From a virus: DNA of 24,250 nt. Shown one piece after another: positions 544 to 23,432 of this stretch. The position numbers and the translations under genes were made by a program. The stretch spans positions 1 through 24,250 of IMG/VR virus record IMGVR_UViG_3300038701_002620. One strand, given 5' to 3'. The first letter of the stretch is position 1. Every line of letters starts with the position of its first letter. Below the pieces are notes generated by a model. The model saw nothing but the letters and a program-made list of their open reading frames with translations, searched no databases and had not been told where the DNA came from.

Positions 544-1569
544 CTACAGATCCTTGATATAAGGGAGCGTGTCGAAGTCAACTGTGGCTAGATCGAGCCA
601 TTGGCCGTAGACAGGATCGTCACCTGTGTCGAGCGGCTGGCCATCGCCATCAAGCAAGACGGGGTTTTGCAGGGGCTGGTCGCTTTCGTCGAGAAGCTGG
701 CGCAGGCGGGGTTTGCCGACTGTCATATCGCCAAAACTGAGCGTTCCACCGTTTCCGTCTGGATCGCCAGGCTCAGCGCGTGCAGCGGTTCCTTGGTCAC
801 GAATTGCCCATTCCCAACCGTTAGGGTCAACAATGATTTCGATATTGATTTCAACCAGATCGAGCGTGCCCCAGCGACGGTTGCTCAAGTCGATCGTGTC
901 AATTAACGCAGTCTCGGCAGCCCAAGTGCGGGCGTTTAGGCCAGGCAGTGTGATGGTGAAATCATCATCGTTGAGTTTGTTCTCCGCGTTGAGCAGTGTG
1001 TTGTTTGCGAGCGTACGAAGCCAGCGAAACGACCAAACTTCGATCAACCTGCGCCGTTCAGGCGTCCTTGCAAACTCTTGGTTGGCCGAGTTTAGAATAG
1101 GCGCCTTATCAGGATCGTAGCCGTCAAACTTAGTGTGTGCAGCCCCTGTGTAGCCGCCCTTGTAGAACGCAGTTCGGGCTGGTTCGTAGACCACTTGCGT
1201 TCGTTTTGTCCAACTGGGCGTCCAGTCTGCCGGATCTGTACTGTTCCCATTGGGTGTCGGGTAGTCCCTGGAATCAGGATTGTCAGATTCGATCTCTTTC
1301 CAGCGGACATGAACCAACCAAATGAATCCTGCATTGCTGCTCGGCTGTGAACATCTAATTGAATCGCAGATTAGATAACCACTTCCAAGCTGCTTGATAG
1401 TGCCGCGCGGGACTGGATTGCCAGACTTGGCAACAAACAATTCGGCCATTTGCACTTTGGTGACGCGTTCGTCGCACGTGACCATGTACTGATCAACGTC
1501 AGTGGCGGTTGTCGCGGTGAACTCTAGGTCACCGCTGCGTAGTTGTCGTTGTTTGATAATCGCGGGCAT
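544..1569 (-). CDS. Putative distal tail protein downstream of the tape measure, 341 aa
   Basis: The ATG at 1567-1569 overlaps the tape-measure stop as TAATG, which points to translational coupling. The protein is soluble, rich in aromatic residues and aspartate, with many short beta-prone stretches and no membrane segment. The C-terminal third is acidic and Pro/Gly rich (DGDGQPLDTGDDP). Genes directly after the tape measure in siphoviruses usually encode distal tail or tail-tip proteins, so that is the best guess. I see no signature of the Dit, Tal or lambda gpM/gpL families and do not name a family. A structure prediction showing a Dit-like beta barrel would settle it. Confidence 0.8.
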   Translation of the reverse strand: MPAIIKQRQLRSGDLEFTATTATDVDQYMVTCDERVTKVQMAELFVAKSGNPVPRGTIKQLGSGYLICDSIRCSQPSSNAGFIWLVHVRWKEIESDNPDSRDYPTPNGNSTDPADWTPSWTKRTQVVYEPARTAFYKGGYTGAAHTKFDGYDPDKAPILNSANQEFARTPERRRLIEVWSFRWLRTLANNTLLNAENKLNDDDFTITLPGLNARTWAAETALIDTIDLSNRRWGTLDLVEINIEIIVDPNGWEWAIRDQGTAARAEPGDPDGNGGTLSFGDMTVGKPRLRQLLDESDQPLQNPVLLDGDGQPLDTGDDPVYGQWLDLATVDFDTLPYIKDL

Positions 1570-3578
1570 TACAATTCCAGCGGTTGTGGTTCGGAGCGAT
1601 TGCGGATTGCTTCGGCCAAGTTGTTGGTGGCAACCGTTTGTTCGAGTAGTTGCCTTTCGCGGCGTGCATCCGCAGCGGCTTGGCGTTTTGCTTCTAGCTC
1701 AGCTTGGGCGCGGGTGAGTTGCTCTTCTTTGGTGATGACATCTGTGAAAAGCTTGTCTGATTTTTCTGAGAACGCGTTGAGCCTGGACTCTTTTTCTGGG
1801 TCAACAGCAACGTGGCCAAGATCGCCTGTGAACAACGCCCTGAGCCCAGATCCTGCCGAATTGATTCGGTCAGTGAGCGTGTCAGTGTCGTATGACACAT
1901 CGCCCAAGCCCTTCGATTGCTCGGCTAGCTCTCGAAACTTCTGCTTGGCTTCGTCAATCCCAGCAACAAGCCGATCAACATTCGCTTCGGCTGCTGCGAC
2001 GGCTGCTTCCGTTGTGTTCTTTTTGAGCTCTGCAGCTTGCTCAGCCGCTTTCTTCTGTTCTTCTGCGATTCGGCCTTGGATGTCCGCCAACTCATCGGCA
2101 ACACGACTGTCGAGATTCGATTTGTCGTCACCTTGCTGCTGAAATGCAAACAGGGTGTCTAGGTCTTCTGCGCTGCCCTTCAGCACCGCATCTGGTCTCT
2201 TGAGCGAAGCAGACTTCTTGGTCGCATTATCAAGTTCTTGGAGGGCCTTCTTGATGCCGCGCTCCATGAACTCCCACTCAAGCCCACCGTTGCGAACGGC
2301 CAGGGAGAGGTCTTCGATTTTGCGCTGGTAGGCTTCGATTGGGGTCTCAAGTGACTTGCGGAAGTCAGCCGCGATCTTGAGCCACTGTTCGTGCTCTTTG
2401 GTAGCATCTTTGGCTGCGTCTCCAGTCTGAGAAAAGCCTTCAGCCACATTCCTCAGGCTGTCATCGACCTGTTGTGCTTGCTCGACTGTTTTCTTTTGCG
2501 TCTGGTTGAATGATGCAAACAGCTGGTCAACTGCGTAAACCGATGCCCCCGCAACTGCCAATCCAGCCGCGATCGATGCCCAACCTTTCGGGCCACTCAG
2601 TGCTTGGGCGATCGTCGAAGCCGTAGCGATCGAGCGAATGCCAATTGCGACTTGCTTTGCTAACGCAATCAGGCGAGGCAAAACGATTGCGGTTCCTGAA
2701 AGTGCGGCAGTGAAGGCAATGGTTTTGGCGATGCTCTCAGCTGTCGTAGTATCAATCTGCTTGAGATACTCGACCCACTCAATCGACTCTTCAACGATCG
2801 CACTAACGGCTGGCAGAAGGACTTCACCAACCTGCGCAGCCAGAATGCCGACATTGTCTTTGAGCGTGCTCAGTCGACCAGTGAGTGTCTGCGATTGGTT
2901 TTCCATCGCCTGGAAAAACCTACCGCCTTCGCTGGTTGCTGACTTGAAAGCCTCAACAACGATGTCGAACGAGATTTCGCCGTTCTCCATTGCCTTGAAT
3001 AGGTCTTCCATGGAGCGGTTAGTTGTTCGGCTAATCTCAGCCAAAGGGTTGAAGCCGTTCTCGACCATCTGATTGACTTCTTGCGCCATCAAGCGGCCCT
3101 TGGCCTGCACCTGGCCAAAGGCAACAGCAAGTCGATCGAGCTTCTCTTGGTTGCCCAATGACACATCGCCGAGAAGCCTGATCTGTCCAGCGACTTCGTC
3201 ATTGGCAGAACCGTAAGCCAAGAGCGTTTGTGCAGCCTTAGCCAGACCCTGAAACTGTAGTGGTGTGCTGGAGGCGAGATCACGCAAACGCTTGATCATC
3301 TTGTCCGCTTCATCAGCCGAGCCAGTCAGCGACTTGAAGGCTGCTTCGATCTGCTGCACTTCTGCAGCCATCTTTACGCCAAAGCCGAGACCAGAAACTA
3401 ACCCAGCCGGAACAGCAAACGTCGCGATGTTCTTCAGGCGGTCGCCAATTTGACGAGCCTGATTGTCAACGCGAATCGCAAATGAGCGAACGTTGCCCTG
3501 GGCCTTACCCAAAGCGGCGGAAAGTCCAGACGCGTTACCTGTGATTCTCAGATTCAGCGGTTCGAGTTTCGTCGCCAT
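1569..3578 (-). CDS. Tape measure protein, 669 aa
   Basis: This is the tail-length ruler and assembly template of a long non-contractile tail (lambda gpH equivalent). Residues about 60-270 match the N-terminal tape-measure domain seen in many phages: AAEVQQIEAAFKSLTGS, then STPLQFQGLAKAAQTLLAYG, then LMAQEVNQMVENGFNPL. Two hydrophobic, Ala/Gly-rich segments follow (about 285-320 and 325-355), as in family members thought to reach the host membrane during DNA entry. The C-terminal half is mostly charged coiled coil with Ala/Glu/Lys repeats (about 470-570). The start ATG at 3576-3578 has GAGGAA upstream and lies inside the end of the frameshifted GT frame. At about 1.5 A per residue the length implies a tail near 100 nm at most; this is a rule of thumb, not a measurement. 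Confidence 0.92.
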   Translation of the reverse strand: MATKLEPLNLRITGNASGLSAALGKAQGNVRSFAIRVDNQARQIGDRLKNIATFAVPAGLVSGLGFGVKMAAEVQQIEAAFKSLTGSADEADKMIKRLRDLASSTPLQFQGLAKAAQTLLAYGSANDEVAGQIRLLGDVSLGNQEKLDRLAVAFGQVQAKGRLMAQEVNQMVENGFNPLAEISRTTNRSMEDLFKAMENGEISFDIVVEAFKSATSEGGRFFQAMENQSQTLTGRLSTLKDNVGILAAQVGEVLLPAVSAIVEESIEWVEYLKQIDTTTAESIAKTIAFTAALSGTAIVLPRLIALAKQVAIGIRSIATASTIAQALSGPKGWASIAAGLAVAGASVYAVDQLFASFNQTQKKTVEQAQQVDDSLRNVAEGFSQTGDAAKDATKEHEQWLKIAADFRKSLETPIEAYQRKIEDLSLAVRNGGLEWEFMERGIKKALQELDNATKKSASLKRPDAVLKGSAEDLDTLFAFQQQGDDKSNLDSRVADELADIQGRIAEEQKKAAEQAAELKKNTTEAAVAAAEANVDRLVAGIDEAKQKFRELAEQSKGLGDVSYDTDTLTDRINSAGSGLRALFTGDLGHVAVDPEKESRLNAFSEKSDKLFTDVITKEEQLTRAQAELEAKRQAAADARRERQLLEQTVATNNLAEAIRNRSEPQPLEL

Positions 3579-4196
3579 TTCGTTCCTCGTGATCGGCGTC
3601 TAACATCGCGATGATTTCGTCGTCATCCTCGCCGCCGTCGCCATCCGGCACATAGGGATACTCAAAACTGAGCGACTCAAGGCTTGTACCACGCACATGC
3701 AGGGAGTTGACGAAAGCACGCTTGTCATCACGACCGGGCCCCCAAGGGTCAATCTCCCAAAGTGCCAGCCAGTCGAGTAGTTCGTCTCGGCTGAACTCTA
3801 GAAGCAGTCGTCTTGGGTGTTGGATTCCGAGGTCTCGGCAGAGCTGGAAGAGTCCGCCGAGTCTTCGGACTTTTTTCTGCGGTCCTCGGACGGCCCACCG
3901 ACCTCATTGAAGTCCGCGACAATGCGGCCTAGCTCGGTTAATGCGTGTGGGTTCCTTCGCAACCAAGCGATGCCGCGATCGTTGTCGAAAACGCCTGGCT
4001 CTTTCTCATCGCCGATGCCCTTGCGGACTAGCCACAGGGCTTGGTCCGTTTCATCGCCCGCGATCTTTGTAAGTTCTCGCATCACTTCAATATCGAATCG
4101 CCACACCCAAACCGGGCCCGGCCAGCCGTCAATGTTCACTTGGCGACTTGGAGGAAACTCCTCCTCGAGCGCACTCAAAATATCTAACGTTGCCAC
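3535..4196 (-). CDS. Predicted -1 frameshift fusion, tail assembly chaperone gpGT-like
   Basis: The zero frame is read through AGA AAA AAG (AAG ends at 3870), then slips back one base and continues in the -1 frame to TAA at 3535-3537. The fusion is about 220 residues: roughly 109 shared with the unshifted protein and 111 new. The shifted part begins VRRLGGLFQLCRDLG and carries EFSRDELLDWLALWEIDPWG, followed by GRDDKRA. That S-x-x-E-L-x-x-W-x-A-x-x-x-x-x-P-W-G pattern is typical of T-domain proteins of siphovirus tail chaperones. The T frame has no start of its own before this motif and otherwise leaves an unexplained 219-base gap before the tape measure, whose 5' end it overlaps by 44 bases. 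In lambda, gpGT binds the tape measure and recruits tail tube subunits. Confidence 0.82.
3798..4196 (-). CDS. Tail assembly chaperone, gpG-like (unshifted product)
   Basis: This small acidic protein, encoded between tail tube and tape measure, corresponds by position to lambda gpG, which coats the tape measure during tail assembly. The N-terminal 85 residues look folded; the C-terminal 30 or so are low complexity (Ser/Asp/Glu) ending in QDDCF. The GTG at 4194-4196 is favoured because GAGGTG lies 5 nt upstream; a TTG one codon earlier (4197-4199) is the alternative. Near the 3' end an A AAA AAG heptamer in the zero frame (3870-3876) precedes a long open -1 frame, so two products are expected. 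Sequence similarity to gpG itself is not evident, as is normal for this family. Confidence 0.85.
   Translation of the reverse strand: MATLDILSALEEEFPPSRQVNIDGWPGPVWVWRFDIEVMRELTKIAGDETDQALWLVRKGIGDEKEPGVFDNDRGIAWLRRNPHALTELGRIVADFNEVGGPSEDRRKKSEDSADSSSSAETSESNTQDDCF
3870..3876 (-). other. Programmed -1 ribosomal slippery heptamer A AAA AAG
   Basis: The heptamer is in phase with the gpG frame (AGA AAA AAG), the same arrangement as the well-known E. coli dnaX slippery site. Six consecutive A residues on the coding strand allow both tRNAs to re-pair after a -1 slip. It lies 23 codons before the gpG stop, and the -1 frame stays open for 111 codons. I did not identify a convincing downstream stimulatory hairpin or upstream Shine-Dalgarno by eye. 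Confidence 0.8.
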
Positions 4197-4242
4197 CAAT
4201 TCACCTCATTGAAAAACGTTGCTGCTGCCTCTACTCCAAGCT

Positions 4243-4698
4243 TTACGGCTTGTCTGCGTTCGTGATCGCACTTGTGCGCACGACGGTTACCGTGCGACGG
4301 AAATACTCTCGCTTTGAGAGCTGCCCTGGCGTGAGTGTCTTGATCTTTCCGTTGAAGGCCATACGAGCCGCGCTGGTTGCATGCGGCGTGTCAAATTGGA
4401 ACGTCAGATGCGTCTTGCCCGCCCGCCATGTGTCCAGCTGAGTCGCGTCTGCGTGACGCGGATCCCAATACATTTCGAACTGCGTTTCGCCAAGGATCTC
4501 ATCACCTAGTTCCACCGGGTCACCATCCAAAGGTGAGCCGTCGTCGTCCTGCGGATTGAGCTCAGGAGCGTCGATTGTTTCGTAGTCTTCGGCGGGTGGC
4601 GTGTAGTTCATCACACGACCGAATTCGACGATGGAGCCACCCACAGGACCAATCGACAAAATGGAACCTTTGGCGATGGTTTTGCGTTGCACTGTCAT
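4243..4698 (-). CDS. Major tail tube protein, gpV-like, 151 aa
   Basis: This is probably the subunit that stacks to form the tail tube. It lies directly before the tail chaperone G/GT pair and after the tail terminator, the lambda V position. The size is typical of tail tube proteins. The N-terminal MTVQRKTIAKGSILSIG and the alternation of short beta strands with loops (QFEMYWDPRHADATQLDTW, then KTHLTFQFDTP) fit the tube fold, where residues around W..D/ADATQ pack as the conserved helix. The ATG at 4696-4698 has AAAGGA about 9 nt upstream. No immunoglobulin-like C-terminal domain is present. Confidence 0.82.
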   Translation of the reverse strand: MTVQRKTIAKGSILSIGPVGGSIVEFGRVMNYTPPAEDYETIDAPELNPQDDDGSPLDGDPVELGDEILGETQFEMYWDPRHADATQLDTWRAGKTHLTFQFDTPHATSAARMAFNGKIKTLTPGQLSKREYFRRTVTVVRTSAITNADKP

Positions 4699-11409: not shown

Positions 11410-13578
11410 TTACCTCGCGGTCACAAAAAATGGTCGACCGTCTGGCGTTTCCAGCCGCGGCGTATCAACCTTGGATGCTGTTGTAGTTTGCTCTGGTTCG
11501 TCGATCTGGAGCACGGATTCGGTAGGCAACACGCAGCCCATCATGGACGCTGCAACGCTGCAGCCAACGAGCGTGTCCCACCAGTGGTTGTCTTTACTGC
11601 CCCGCACTTCCCAGACGTTTACGGTTCGGCCTTCGGCGGTCACTTGGGACGGTCTTTCGGCCAGAAGGTGGCTGACATAATGCCCGTGATCCTGGCGCCG
11701 GTCTCCCCACAGATGCCAAGCGCCCTCGCTGGCGACTTGAGTGAGTCGTGAGGCAATAACGGACTTCCAGAAGTTCGCATCGAAGTGAACCCGAAGAACG
11801 CCGCCGTCGATGTTCTCGATTGGGTAGTACCAACGCGGTGCTTCTGGATCTGGACCGCACCTGAGCACCCGTTTTTCGCTCATGTCATATTCGGGCATCG
11901 GCTTTCGCCGCGGCCCGGACGGAATACCCTTCGCCGTCATTACGCGATCGCCACATTGGAGCGACCGAATTGCGTTAGCAACTTCCTTGGCTTTGTATCC
12001 GGCATCCACCAAACCACATGACACTGGCAGCTGTGTACGATTGGAAAACGACCACTTGTAGTCAAGCAATCGGCTCAACAAGTCTCGTACGCCGTGTTCG
12101 ATAGCCGTATCGCTATCAACGGTTGCGTAGACCATCGAAAGCGTCTTCTTGGCAGATCGCAGATTAAACCAGTCGTTTGGTTGTTCTGGCCAAGTTCCCC
12201 ATGCAATCGCATCGCCGGTGAAATCCTGCGACACGGCAGCCGCCGTCCAGTAAAGCACTTCGTCGTGAACATCGACGTGGAACACGACGTTGCTTCGACC
12301 ATCCGGAATCACACCGTAGCCAAAGTTGTTGTATCGCTCGAGCAGCTCATCTTGCTCCATGTGCAGTGGAGCGGCGACACTTGGTCGCAATGGTGCGTTT
12401 TGACATTCCGACCAGAAGGTTGCTTCCTTCTTGTCGATGAGAATGTTCATCGCATGCTGAATGGCTGAGATTTCGGTCTTCTCGAGCCCGATGTTCTCCC
12501 AAGTGGCAACCGCACCTTCATCCATTTTCTTGCGGTGTGACTTGTAGAATTCGGTTGACGCATACTTGGCTTTGATGCGGCCCCAAGGGTCATTGCGATC
12601 ATACGACCGGCGAATCTTGGCATAGTCAGTGAGCCAGAGATCATCCAAATGCTTTGGCATTGAACTGATCATAGCCACACGAACCGACTGCCAGTTCTCG
12701 CCAACGTCGCTGGTTGGATCACTCAACTGGTCAGCCAAGTCACCTTCTGCTTTGATGGTGGCATTACACACCATCGACAATTCGTTGCCGTGACCACCCA
12801 TCATCGAAATCGAACTATGGATGTAGTCCAGTCGCTTGGCCGTTTGGGGCATACTGGTCGCTGAATCGTCTGTTTGCGGATCGTCCAGGACAGCGAAGTC
12901 TGGACGCACGTTGGCGCCCTTTTCGTTCTTGTACCTAGCACCCCGTGGCGGCGCGAGCAAACCATAGGCTTCCACAATCGCGCCGCTGCAGTCGGCTCCT
13001 GGAATCATCGCCAACCGAAGCGTATCGCCTTTGCACTGGATGTTTGTCAGTTCACCTTCATACGTTTGCGTTGGCGCCCGCATGGCTTTGCCTTCCAACG
13101 CCATGATGGGAAAGCATGCTTCTGGGAAGTCGGCTTGCAGGAGTTCGTTGTACTGCAATTCCCGCTTGATCGAGTCGATGCCAGTTTCCGCCAGTGCAGC
13201 CGTTCCCGCGAAGAACAGAATGTACGAGCGCACGCCGAACAGCATCGCCCAGAGGATGCTGTTTTCGCTGATCGTCGATTTGACAAAACCGCGTGGCATG
13301 ATGTTACAGACCCAACCTTCTTCAAGTAGAGCAACTTCCAGTCGCTCGATTACATTGATTTGTTCTTGGCAAAGTGGGCTGAGGCCCGTCGAATTTGGAA
13401 AGTACGTTGTCAGGAAATAGCGAAGTGACTCTTTCGCTTTGGCTCGTCGCGACGGATCTTTGACAGGCGGAATCTCGCCAATGTCGGCAACAGCACTACG
13501 TGCATCACGGCTCCGCTTCGCAAGTCGCTCACGATCGTTGGCCGCTGAGTTCTTCAGTACCTCTTCGCGCTGCGCCAT
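11410..13578 (-). CDS. Terminase large subunit, 722 aa
   Basis: This is the packaging motor ATPase plus nuclease. The N-terminal ATPase has PRGFVKST (95-102) at the Walker A position and PDFAVLDDP (226-234) as Walker B. The RNase H-like nuclease carries Asp436 in HVDVHDEVLYW, Asp525 in GLVDAGYKA and Asp668 in NHWWDTLVGC, the spacing and context of GpA-type terminases. At 722 residues it is longer than many terminases (lambda gpA has 641), with a basic N-terminal extension. The Walker A has Val where Gly is usual before Lys, as some terminases do. The ATG overlaps the previous stop as TAATG. Sequence downstream follows the lambda order A-W-B-C. Confidence 0.93.
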   Translation of the reverse strand: MAQREEVLKNSAANDRERLAKRSRDARSAVADIGEIPPVKDPSRRAKAKESLRYFLTTYFPNSTGLSPLCQEQINVIERLEVALLEEGWVCNIMPRGFVKSTISENSILWAMLFGVRSYILFFAGTAALAETGIDSIKRELQYNELLQADFPEACFPIMALEGKAMRAPTQTYEGELTNIQCKGDTLRLAMIPGADCSGAIVEAYGLLAPPRGARYKNEKGANVRPDFAVLDDPQTDDSATSMPQTAKRLDYIHSSISMMGGHGNELSMVCNATIKAEGDLADQLSDPTSDVGENWQSVRVAMISSMPKHLDDLWLTDYAKIRRSYDRNDPWGRIKAKYASTEFYKSHRKKMDEGAVATWENIGLEKTEISAIQHAMNILIDKKEATFWSECQNAPLRPSVAAPLHMEQDELLERYNNFGYGVIPDGRSNVVFHVDVHDEVLYWTAAAVSQDFTGDAIAWGTWPEQPNDWFNLRSAKKTLSMVYATVDSDTAIEHGVRDLLSRLLDYKWSFSNRTQLPVSCGLVDAGYKAKEVANAIRSLQCGDRVMTAKGIPSGPRRKPMPEYDMSEKRVLRCGPDPEAPRWYYPIENIDGGVLRVHFDANFWKSVIASRLTQVASEGAWHLWGDRRQDHGHYVSHLLAERPSQVTAEGRTVNVWEVRGSKDNHWWDTLVGCSVAASMMGCVLPTESVLQIDEPEQTTTASKVDTPRLETPDGRPFFVTAR

Positions 13579-14615
13579 TAGGTTTGCTTGTCCACCAGTG
13601 CAACCTTCTGATCACAACTGCTCTTTACTCTCGTGATCTCGTTGCCTTCACTGTCTCGAAGCTCACCTGACCACTTGTAGTTGCTTGCAGGCAGGCCTTC
13701 TGTGTCCGTCTTGAGTAATTCTGCCTTCGCCAACCAAGTGCTCGCATCGACTTCTGCGACACTTCCTTCAACCAGCCAACCGTCACCGCCACTGTTCTTT
13801 CCACCGAACCAGAACGATGCATCGTTGACGTTCACGCCAGGCAGCGATGCAACTTCCCAGCTGAATGCTCGCCCGTGTGCATCCAGATAGTCGTCACCAA
13901 TCACGATTGGCCCATTGATGCTGCCAAGCGGCGAGACCAATGGCGAAGTGTAAACAGGTTGCGCGTCGATCAAGAGCGACTGAATCGCAGACAACGACGC
14001 GGGCAAGGTTGTCCCAGTATCTTCAACGATTGCGGCCAAGGTGTTTGGCAGCGTCGTGCCTGTGTCTGTGAGTATTTCCGCAAGAGTTGCCGGCAGCGAT
14101 GTTCCGGTGTCCTCAAGTATTCCGACTAAGACCGCTGGGATTGTAGTGCTGGTATCCTCAACGATTGCAGCCAATTGCGTGTCGAGATTAGCCGCCACCA
14201 AACCGACAGCGGATCGCACTGCGGCAGCGTCCAGGCCAGGTGCGTTCGCCAACGATAACGCTGTGAACTGGAAACCGCTCGAACCATCATCTTCAAGCAT
14301 CGCCTCTTGCTTGCGGCGTAGCCTGGCTTGATGAAGCTCTTCGATGCTGCCAGATGCAATGTATGGCCCCGCATCATCGGCCAGAATATCCACCCAGCCC
14401 TGTAGCACTTCGATGCCATCGCCGTCTTCAACGGATAATCGGTACAGGCCAACCTGAGCGCCACTAACTGTGAATGTGTGCTTCGACTCGGATTGAGTAG
14501 TTATCGCGTGCCCCGCCGCGTCGGGCGCAACAATTCCAGACTCGGCTTCTTCTAGCCGAGCCAGGACAAAGCCTGTTACCGCGAATTCGTCGATTTGCAC
14601 GATCGTGCTACTCAT
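13578..14615 (-). CDS. Fibre or baseplate-type protein with 15-residue repeats, 345 aa
   Basis: Residues 1-100 form a beta-rich N-terminal domain. Residues 131-147 (AAVRSAVGLVAANLDTQ) lead into four tandem 15-residue repeats (148-207) with the consensus L-x-x-I-x-E/T-D-T-G-T-T-L-P-x-x. Such DTGTTLP repeats occur in many phage fibre and BppU-like proteins, where they form a trimeric shaft. The C-terminal domain (about 235-345) opens IVIGDDYLDAHGRAFSW and looks like the BppU-type N-terminal beta domain used for attachment. The ATG 14613-14615 lies inside the end of the 47-residue gene. It probably belongs to the receptor-binding apparatus together with the 1081-residue fibre. Confidence 0.8.
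   Translation of the reverse strand: MSSTIVQIDEFAVTGFVLARLEEAESGIVAPDAAGHAITTQSESKHTFTVSGAQVGLYRLSVEDGDGIEVLQGWVDILADDAGPYIASGSIEELHQARLRRKQEAMLEDDGSSGFQFTALSLANAPGLDAAAVRSAVGLVAANLDTQLAAIVEDTSTTIPAVLVGILEDTGTSLPATLAEILTDTGTTLPNTLAAIVEDTGTTLPASLSAIQSLLIDAQPVYTSPLVSPLGSINGPIVIGDDYLDAHGRAFSWEVASLPGVNVNDASFWFGGKNSGGDGWLVEGSVAEVDASTWLAKAELLKTDTEGLPASNYKWSGELRDSEGNEITRVKSSCDQKVALVDKQT
13995..14174 (-). repeat. Four tandem 45-bp repeats (15 aa each) in the fibre-type gene
   Basis: In-frame repeats encode units ending DTSTTIPAV, DTGTSLPAT, DTGTTLPNT and DTGTTLPAS. Protein conservation is higher than nucleotide conservation, so the repeat is maintained by selection rather than being a recent duplication. 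Such arrays may change copy number by recombination. Confidence 0.8.
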
Positions 14616-22081: not shown

Positions 22082-22590
22082 TTTGCGACCTCCGATTTCT
22101 CGGACTGGGCGGCCAACTTTTTCAGTTCAGCAAGCTTTGTTTCCGCCGTCGCGAAATCACTCTCAGCCACAGCTGCAGTCAATTCGCTAATCGCCTCTGG
22201 CCCGCGGACCATCGGCTCGAGCTTCGCGCGTGCGGCGACATCGTTGGTTGCGATCGCCTGGATTAGGTCGCGTTGGACTTTGTCAGGACTAGATACCTTC
22301 ACGGCAGGCGCGCTGGCGGTAGTGCTGCCCTGGATTTGATTCCAAACCCACTCGCCAACGTTCAGCACCCACAAACCAACTCCAGCGAGCAGTGCGATGC
22401 CGAGTTCGATTACCGGCCAGAGCAAAGCCAATCCCGTGACTGGGTTTGCAACCTCGCCCTCGGCGGGATCTGGCGTCGAATAGGCCAGTGCTGCATCCTG
22501 CAGCGTTGGCGAAAACAGCCAACGCAATGCCAGAAACAGAACGGCTCCACCAACAGCCACTTGAATTCGCTTGTTGTTCTTCCAATCCAT
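22078..22590 (-). CDS. Membrane protein with two hydrophobic segments, 170 aa
   Basis: Two membrane segments (about 9-27, IQVAVGGAVLFLALRWLF; 52-82, VTGLALLWPVIELGIALLAGVGLWVLNV) are followed by an Ala/Glu/Lys helical tail (about 100-170) that probably lies in the cytosol. The start is ATG 22588-22590, overlapping the KilA-N gene stop; a GTG one codon earlier also exists. A two-TM protein with a charged C-terminal domain can be a holin, but the tail is longer than usual and the family is not recognised. Its stop overlaps the next start as ATGA. Confidence 0.75.
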   Translation of the reverse strand: MDWKNNKRIQVAVGGAVLFLALRWLFSPTLQDAALAYSTPDPAEGEVANPVTGLALLWPVIELGIALLAGVGLWVLNVGEWVWNQIQGSTTASAPAVKVSSPDKVQRDLIQAIATNDVAARAKLEPMVRGPEAISELTAAVAESDFATAETKLAELKKLAAQSEKSEVAK

Positions 22591-23432
22591 CACTCACCAC
22601 CCTCAAACTCTAGGAAAAGCTGGGAGTCGCCAGCGTGAAGCAATCGTTGAAATTGCTGAAATGCTGGACCAGCTTGGAACCAATAGCCATTTGGCTTGCG
22701 ATTCTTCAGCTTGTTATTGCATGTCTTGCAGACGATCCATCCGTGCTCCAGCCTGTTCATTGAGCGGTGGTGGTAGTGCTCAAGCTGAGCGATATGGGGA
22801 ATTCGCTTGCCACCCAGGACAATGCCCTGCAATTGGCAGCAAGGGCATTGCCCGTGATAGTATCGCTCAACACAAGAAACAAACCTCTTGGCTACACTCG
22901 CTGAAAACCCCTCGCGAATGCCTTGTGTTCTCTCATCGATTCGCTTCACCATTGGAAGCAACTCGTTGAGGATGTGTTGATTCTGCTCTTGAATGCTTAG
23001 CATGCGGGTTACGAGCGACTCGTACTTGCTGTGCAAGACCGAAATATCGTTCTGGATGTCTGCGATTGCATGCTCTGCGTGCTCTCGATGAGCCACTCGC
23101 TGGCCTGTCATAATCGCTTCGATCTGCCCTGTTACCCAGACGGCAAAATCTGGCGAGCACCACTGAGCGAGGTGGATGGCGACCCGGCGATGAACCCAAG
23201 TACCGCCTCCGAGATCACCGCGAACTGCACTAGACTGGATCAGGTCCGAATTCGGACATGATAATTGCCTAGCCAATGCCGCAATAAACTCTTGCGTCTG
23301 CTGGTTCTCCCAGTATTTTGCCCAGCGCTTTCCGGTCGCCTGGCACATAGCGGTGGCGTTGACGAATTCATCTGCCGGGCGGCATTGAATTTCGGTGCTG
23401 TTGTAGCTTCCTAGTGTTGCTAGACCAATCAC
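22590..23432 (-). CDS. KilA-N domain / coiled coil / HNH-like protein, 280 aa
   Basis: Residues about 15-108 form a KilA-N domain: EFVNATAMCQATGKRWAKYW, then TQEFIAALA and GGTWVHRRVAIHLAQWCSPDFAVWV, a DNA-binding fold of phages and large viruses. A coiled coil follows at about 115-175. The C-terminal part has a treble-clef HNH pattern: Cys196/Cys199, LEHYHH (217-222) and CKTCNNKLKN (235-244), with the paired Cys and a His-containing centre typical of HNH nucleases. The start is GTG 23430-23432, overlapping the previous stop as GTGA. This may be a DNA-binding homing-type nuclease or a regulator. Its place amid membrane genes is odd. Confidence 0.83.
   Translation of the reverse strand: MIGLATLGSYNSTEIQCRPADEFVNATAMCQATGKRWAKYWENQQTQEFIAALARQLSCPNSDLIQSSAVRGDLGGGTWVHRRVAIHLAQWCSPDFAVWVTGQIEAIMTGQRVAHREHAEHAIADIQNDISVLHSKYESLVTRMLSIQEQNQHILNELLPMVKRIDERTQGIREGFSASVAKRFVSCVERYYHGQCPCCQLQGIVLGGKRIPHIAQLEHYHHRSMNRLEHGWIVCKTCNNKLKNRKPNGYWFQAGPAFQQFQRLLHAGDSQLFLEFEGGE

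Follow-up and report, generated by a model that had tools for sequence, protein, structure and literature searches.

A predicted −1 frameshift links gpG-like and gpT-like frames of a putative tail assembly chaperone in a divergent phage

Gene neighbourhood of the candidate chaperone frames

The analysed stretch of DNA (hereafter, the window) constitutes one assembled virus record, 24,250 bases in length. On its minus strand it carries terminase, portal, protease, major head protein and connector genes, in this order, in the head part (the portal gene being identified via its relatives), and a probable tail tube protein, the G frame, a 219-base gap and the tape measure protein in the tail part. 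The probable major tail (tube) protein (4243..4698, minus strand) is situated directly upstream of G and matches the PHROG 158 major tail protein (E = 2.7e-4), its match to Pfam Phage_TTP_12 being below the cut-off (E = 0.016). The tape measure protein (TMP; 1569..3578, minus strand) is recognized both by Pfam TMP_3 (E = 2.9e-30) and by the PHROG tape measure family (E = 1.1e-50). The gap extends from the G stop (3798) to the TMP start (3578). Thus, two overlapping frames, G and T, are flanked by a probable major tail protein gene on one side and the tape measure gene on the other.

The G frame, the slippery heptamer and the T frame

The G frame, a putative gpG-like tail assembly chaperone (3798..4199, minus strand), starts with either TTG at 4199 or GTG at 4196, the latter having a better spacing from the Shine-Dalgarno-like GAGGTGA at 4207-4201, and ends with a TAG stop at 3798. 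The heptamer A_AAA_AAG (3870..3876, minus strand) is in phase with this frame, as had been claimed in a preliminary description of the locus, the G codons being AGA AAA AAG. The mere presence of AAAAAAG in the window means nothing, as about four occurrences are expected by chance and one is observed.

The T frame (3535..3876, minus strand; KKVRRLGGLFQLCRD...FSRDELLDWLALWEIDPWGPGRDDKRA...SENHR, stop TAA at 3537-3535) is the −1 frame as read after the shift. It reads KKVRRLGGLFQLCRDLGIQHPRRLLLEFSRDELLDWLALWEIDPWGPGRDDKRAFVN... and runs from KKVRRLGG to SENHR. It is closed upstream by a TGA at 3906 and, as described earlier, stays open for 111 codons after KK; it spans the 219 bases before the TMP gene, so that this otherwise empty gap is accounted for, and the TMP start lies within its end, the overlap being 44 bases. 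An open −1 frame of this length is not very rare by itself: the chance of a 111-codon open out-of-phase frame in the genes of this phage is 0.4-2.4%. In its codon usage, however, the T frame strongly resembles the phage's genes, with the log-likelihood of +38 and +23 nats against the two out-of-frame backgrounds, and each of the other two frames of the same stretch has a negative log-likelihood against at least one background.

Two details of the preliminary description stand in part. A conserved motif followed by DDKRA is present in the T frame as described, but DDKRA is not adjacent to the motif, as PGR is situated between PWG and DDKRA. The frame was also described as having no start codon: there is indeed no ATG, GTG or TTG upstream of the motif, but GTG (3696 and 3651) and ATG (3606) codons are present after it. 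Since all of them are downstream of the conserved motif, no ordinary start could yield the whole T domain.

The end of unshifted G (3801-3869, minus strand) is serine-rich, and so it is in the loci L226, L227, L228 and L232. Shifted by one base, the codons for conserved T-frame residues (FLFRL and similar) become TCC/TCT, which explains this serine-rich end; thus, the composition of the G/T overlap seems to be set by the T frame.

Relatives found through the tape measure gene

Direct searches yielded no close relative of G or T. Neither G alone nor T alone found a relative among viral contigs, the G/T fusion had no match among phage records, and single-sequence scans of viral contigs with the tape measure and with the next gene gave no match. 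The window G had no family match by sequence in Pfam or PHROG, and the sole Pfam match of the window T was Phage_tail_T PF06223 at E = 0.004 and 18 bits, the curated cut-off being 25.9.

Tape measure relatives were therefore gathered by a four-sequence profile, which gave 80 viral and 80 genome loci. In 17 loci we observed a G frame, an in-phase AAAAAAA or AAAAAAC, and a −1 T frame with a motif of the W...D..EP[IM]GE type just upstream of the tape measure. The window T matches the T of the relatives in a profile comparison (P = 2.2e-4), colinearly from just past the shift site, and the window G has a weak sequence link to their G (P = 0.003; shuffled minimum 0.07). PHROG 344 tail assembly chaperone is matched by eight of the nine members of the G alignment, the window being the exception. 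Among the 17 aligned T frames, 9 match PF06223 at E = 0.01 or better (best 4.8e-16) and 11 match PHROG 337 'tail protein'. The fused G/T proteins of the relatives match the tail assembly chaperone families PHROG 344 and 25875 as well as PHROG 337, and have a match to Phage_tail_T below the cut-off. In an Arthrobacter phage whose tape measure is related, a joined chaperone is annotated at the equivalent place. The resemblance of the −1 frame to a tail chaperone family, which had been proposed from the window, is consistent with these matches, that of the window T itself being below the cut-off.

For a phase control, all tape measure relatives, the window included, were clustered at 60% identity, and the heptamer geometry was required. 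Of the 61 clusters, 17 contained an isolated AAAAAAN or GGGAAAN heptamer in phase, compared to 2 and 0 clusters for the two wrong phases. A chance test counting any XXXYYYN was too permissive, as long A runs occupy several phases, and was replaced by this comparison of isolated heptamers in clustered loci.

G/T pairs with the same architecture as in the window precede TMP_3-type tape measure genes, on their upstream side, in contigs of IMG/VR and a Planctomycetaceae MAG (L053, L070, L056 and L131) and in the genomes G198 (L219) and G325 (L217). Similarly to the window, these six loci have an in-phase slippery heptamer, a downstream hairpin and a homologous T, whereas the heptamer letters differ (AAAAAAA, AAAAAAC, GGGAAAC), G is nearly unalignable with that of the window, and unshifted G continues after the heptamer for 3-27 nt, as opposed to 72 nt in the window. 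The nearest relative is L219, where T is 39% identical over 59 residues (E = 1.8e-9) and the slippery site is GGGAAAC. In related phages, the position and phase of the heptamer are kept, as was to be checked for the preliminary description, with the letters varying between A_AAA_AAN and G_GGA_AAN.

Tape measure relatives, L219 being one of them, are present among 392 genomes from the phylum of the Planctomycetaceae MAG of L131, and a scan of these genomes with a T-domain profile gave nine matches in eight genomes, L217 and L219 being among the nine, yet also part of the profile. One further match came from the phylum of an actinobacterial MAG, for which 198 genomes were scanned; in the phylum of L113 (Chitinophagaceae MAG), also covered by 198 genomes, the T model had no match, which is uninformative given that this set has no positive. 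All ten T-profile loci, from two phyla, have an in-phase GGGAAAC, GGGAAAA or AAAAAAC at the first T codon. As the first two columns of the profile encode the heptamer, the independence of this test is incomplete for the protein sequence, but codons other than those of the heptamer can also specify Lys-Lys or Gly-Lys.

At L082 (2662-2671) the G stop TAA immediately follows the slippery AAAAAAA, with nothing between, and likewise the G stop is immediately after the slippery site in L217, L229 and L231. An in-frame GT fusion was suspected in L226-L228 from long open frames and was rejected when heptamers and a separate G frame were found there.

Alternative origins of the two frames

Apart from ribosomal frameshifting, three explanations of the G/T arrangement could be considered. 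RNA polymerase could slip on the A6 run, so that some transcripts would have one A more or less and GT would be produced by ordinary translation. The junction does contain six A's followed by G, but six A's are short for transcriptional slippage, the corresponding site of the nearest relatives is GGGAAAC or GGGAAAA, without a long run, and the downstream hairpin at a ribosomal spacing fits translation. Thus, polymerase slippage is very unlikely.

If a base had been gained or lost in A6 by an assembly or sequencing error, a single fused GT gene would appear split; homopolymers are prone to such indels, and the window is a single assembled record. However, dozens of other loci break the frame at the same point and in the same relation, and the G frame runs past the heptamer and then stops, with the T homology starting just after the site, as in the relatives, so that an error is still less probable than slippage of the polymerase. 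Equally improbable is a separate T protein made with no frameshift from an internal non-standard start (ATT at 3753, CTG at 3807 or 3768, all present in the T frame), given the lack of ordinary starts before the motif and the fact that the homology begins at the heptamer in 10/10 T-profile matches, something not required of a separately started protein.

Predicted downstream hairpin

A stimulatory hairpin is predicted at 3825..3869 (minus strand), the core stem starting from 3861, 8 nt after the heptamer. The prediction for the window is based on the folding energy: the 45 nt after the heptamer have −23.2 kcal/mol (z = −4.0), with no shuffle being equally stable, and at other lengths z is −2.5 (35 nt) and −1.9 (80 nt). 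Over 20 loci, several of which are closely related and hence do not constitute 20 independent cases, the mean z at the hairpin position is −2.8. The hairpins differ between lineages of related loci, and in L225, L226, L228 and L229 we observed no unusual structure downstream of the heptamer. In the closest related group, two pairs have double changes; as this covariation score is reached by 47 of 500 shuffles, covariation of the hairpin there is suggestive at best.

Predicted fold of G

The structure model of G has pLDDT of 72 (about 85 in the core). The top PDB match of this model by Foldseek is 2OB9, the HK97 tail assembly chaperone (probability 0.99, E = 0.048), and a second aligner gives a middling Z of 7.2 over 93 residues for the same structure, compared to about 2.5 for unrelated rows; the identity is 12-14%. 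The next PDB matches are 5IR0, a phage-satellite protein, and 3FGX, an uncharacterised Bacillus stearothermophilus protein, and YqbN (3KLU) is ranked lower; in the second aligner, three of these four structures have Z of 7.2 to 7.6, and 5IR0 has 5.6. The input alignment of the structure predictor for G included chaperone relatives, on which the model therefore depends. With moderate strength, the model suggests that the window G has the HK97 gp13 chaperone fold. The T model is poor past residue 42, and a fold search with it gave no significant match.

Comparison with known systems and proposed mechanism

In lambda, low-level −1 frameshifting produces gpG and gpGT at about 30:1, the tape measure is bound by G and the tube protein by T, and the G/GT arrangement is widely retained among long-tailed phages despite low similarity (PMC5009743; see also PMC10885494). 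The window shares with lambda the order of the tube, G, T and tape measure genes, and has a predicted −1 frameshift near the G end and two predicted products; its T matches the T domain family PF06223 weakly, below the cut-off. On the other hand, the sequences are almost unrelated, and the frameshift of the window is a prediction from sequence. The slippery site of lambda is presumably G-rich, as opposed to A_AAA_AAG in the window. HK97 gp13 is the best solved fold match of the G model in Foldseek and is also recovered by the second aligner, but has no common sequence family with it at the threshold, in addition to the low identity.

We conclude, with a probability of about 95%, that the locus encodes a pair of tail assembly chaperones of the lambda type, with a predicted −1 frameshift on A_AAA_AAG. 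The pair appears to be a divergent member of the well-known lambda gpG/gpGT system, and the initial proposal, a programmed −1 frameshift linking gpG-like and gpT-like chaperone parts, is supported as a sequence prediction. The occurrence of the shift, its rate and the chaperone function are what we infer for the window.

Under the predicted frameshift, most ribosomes would read the G frame to the stop at 3798, yielding gpG, and a minority would move one base back on A_AAA_AAG, where tRNA-Lys would exchange its pairing with AAA-AAG for AAA-AAA. The slip may be aided by the hairpin 8 nt downstream, and the slipped ribosomes would continue in the −1 frame to 3535, producing a gpGT fusion with a length of about 220 residues. 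If the pair acts as in lambda, G and GT would coat the tape measure protein, the T domain would recruit the tail tube subunit, and then both G and GT would leave the tail.

There is an even chance that the pair represents a branch of tail chaperones that has been little described and probably occurs in Planctomycetota phages. In such a branch an in-phase heptamer and a hairpin at 6-9 nt would be kept, whereas the letters of the heptamer, the hairpin itself and the entire G sequence would change, the signal being conserved by function, not by sequence.

The production of two helper proteins from one gene via a −1 slip is a well-known phage trick, here seen in divergent sequence; the understanding of tail assembly is unchanged, and the interest lies in annotation, not mechanism. 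The tail gene set is completed for a phage that has no close relative in the searched collections, and a protein is added that standard gene prediction would overlook. Frame-aware annotation in the neighbourhood of tape measure genes is shown to recover chaperones that escape family searches.

Head module and other features of the window

The portal relatives of the window have the head module in common with it, and for two viral contigs among them (L002 and L003) the listed ORFs included no recognisable counterpart of the tail module. L212 (G156) and L182 represent a prophage-like element in a genome of the phylum of L131, with 44% identity to the window in the portal and 33% in the major head protein, and no match to the window's tail genes. 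As this element resembles the window in the head genes without a tail gene match, the head and tail modules of the window seem to have separate histories.

A protein encoded at 13578-14615 (minus strand) has imperfect repeats of ~16 residues (LAAIVEDTGTTLPATL...), too diverged to register in a tandem repeat finder. At 22590-23432 (minus strand), a regulator-like N-terminal part and an HNH endonuclease-like C-terminal part (PHROG 129, 5956) are combined in one protein.
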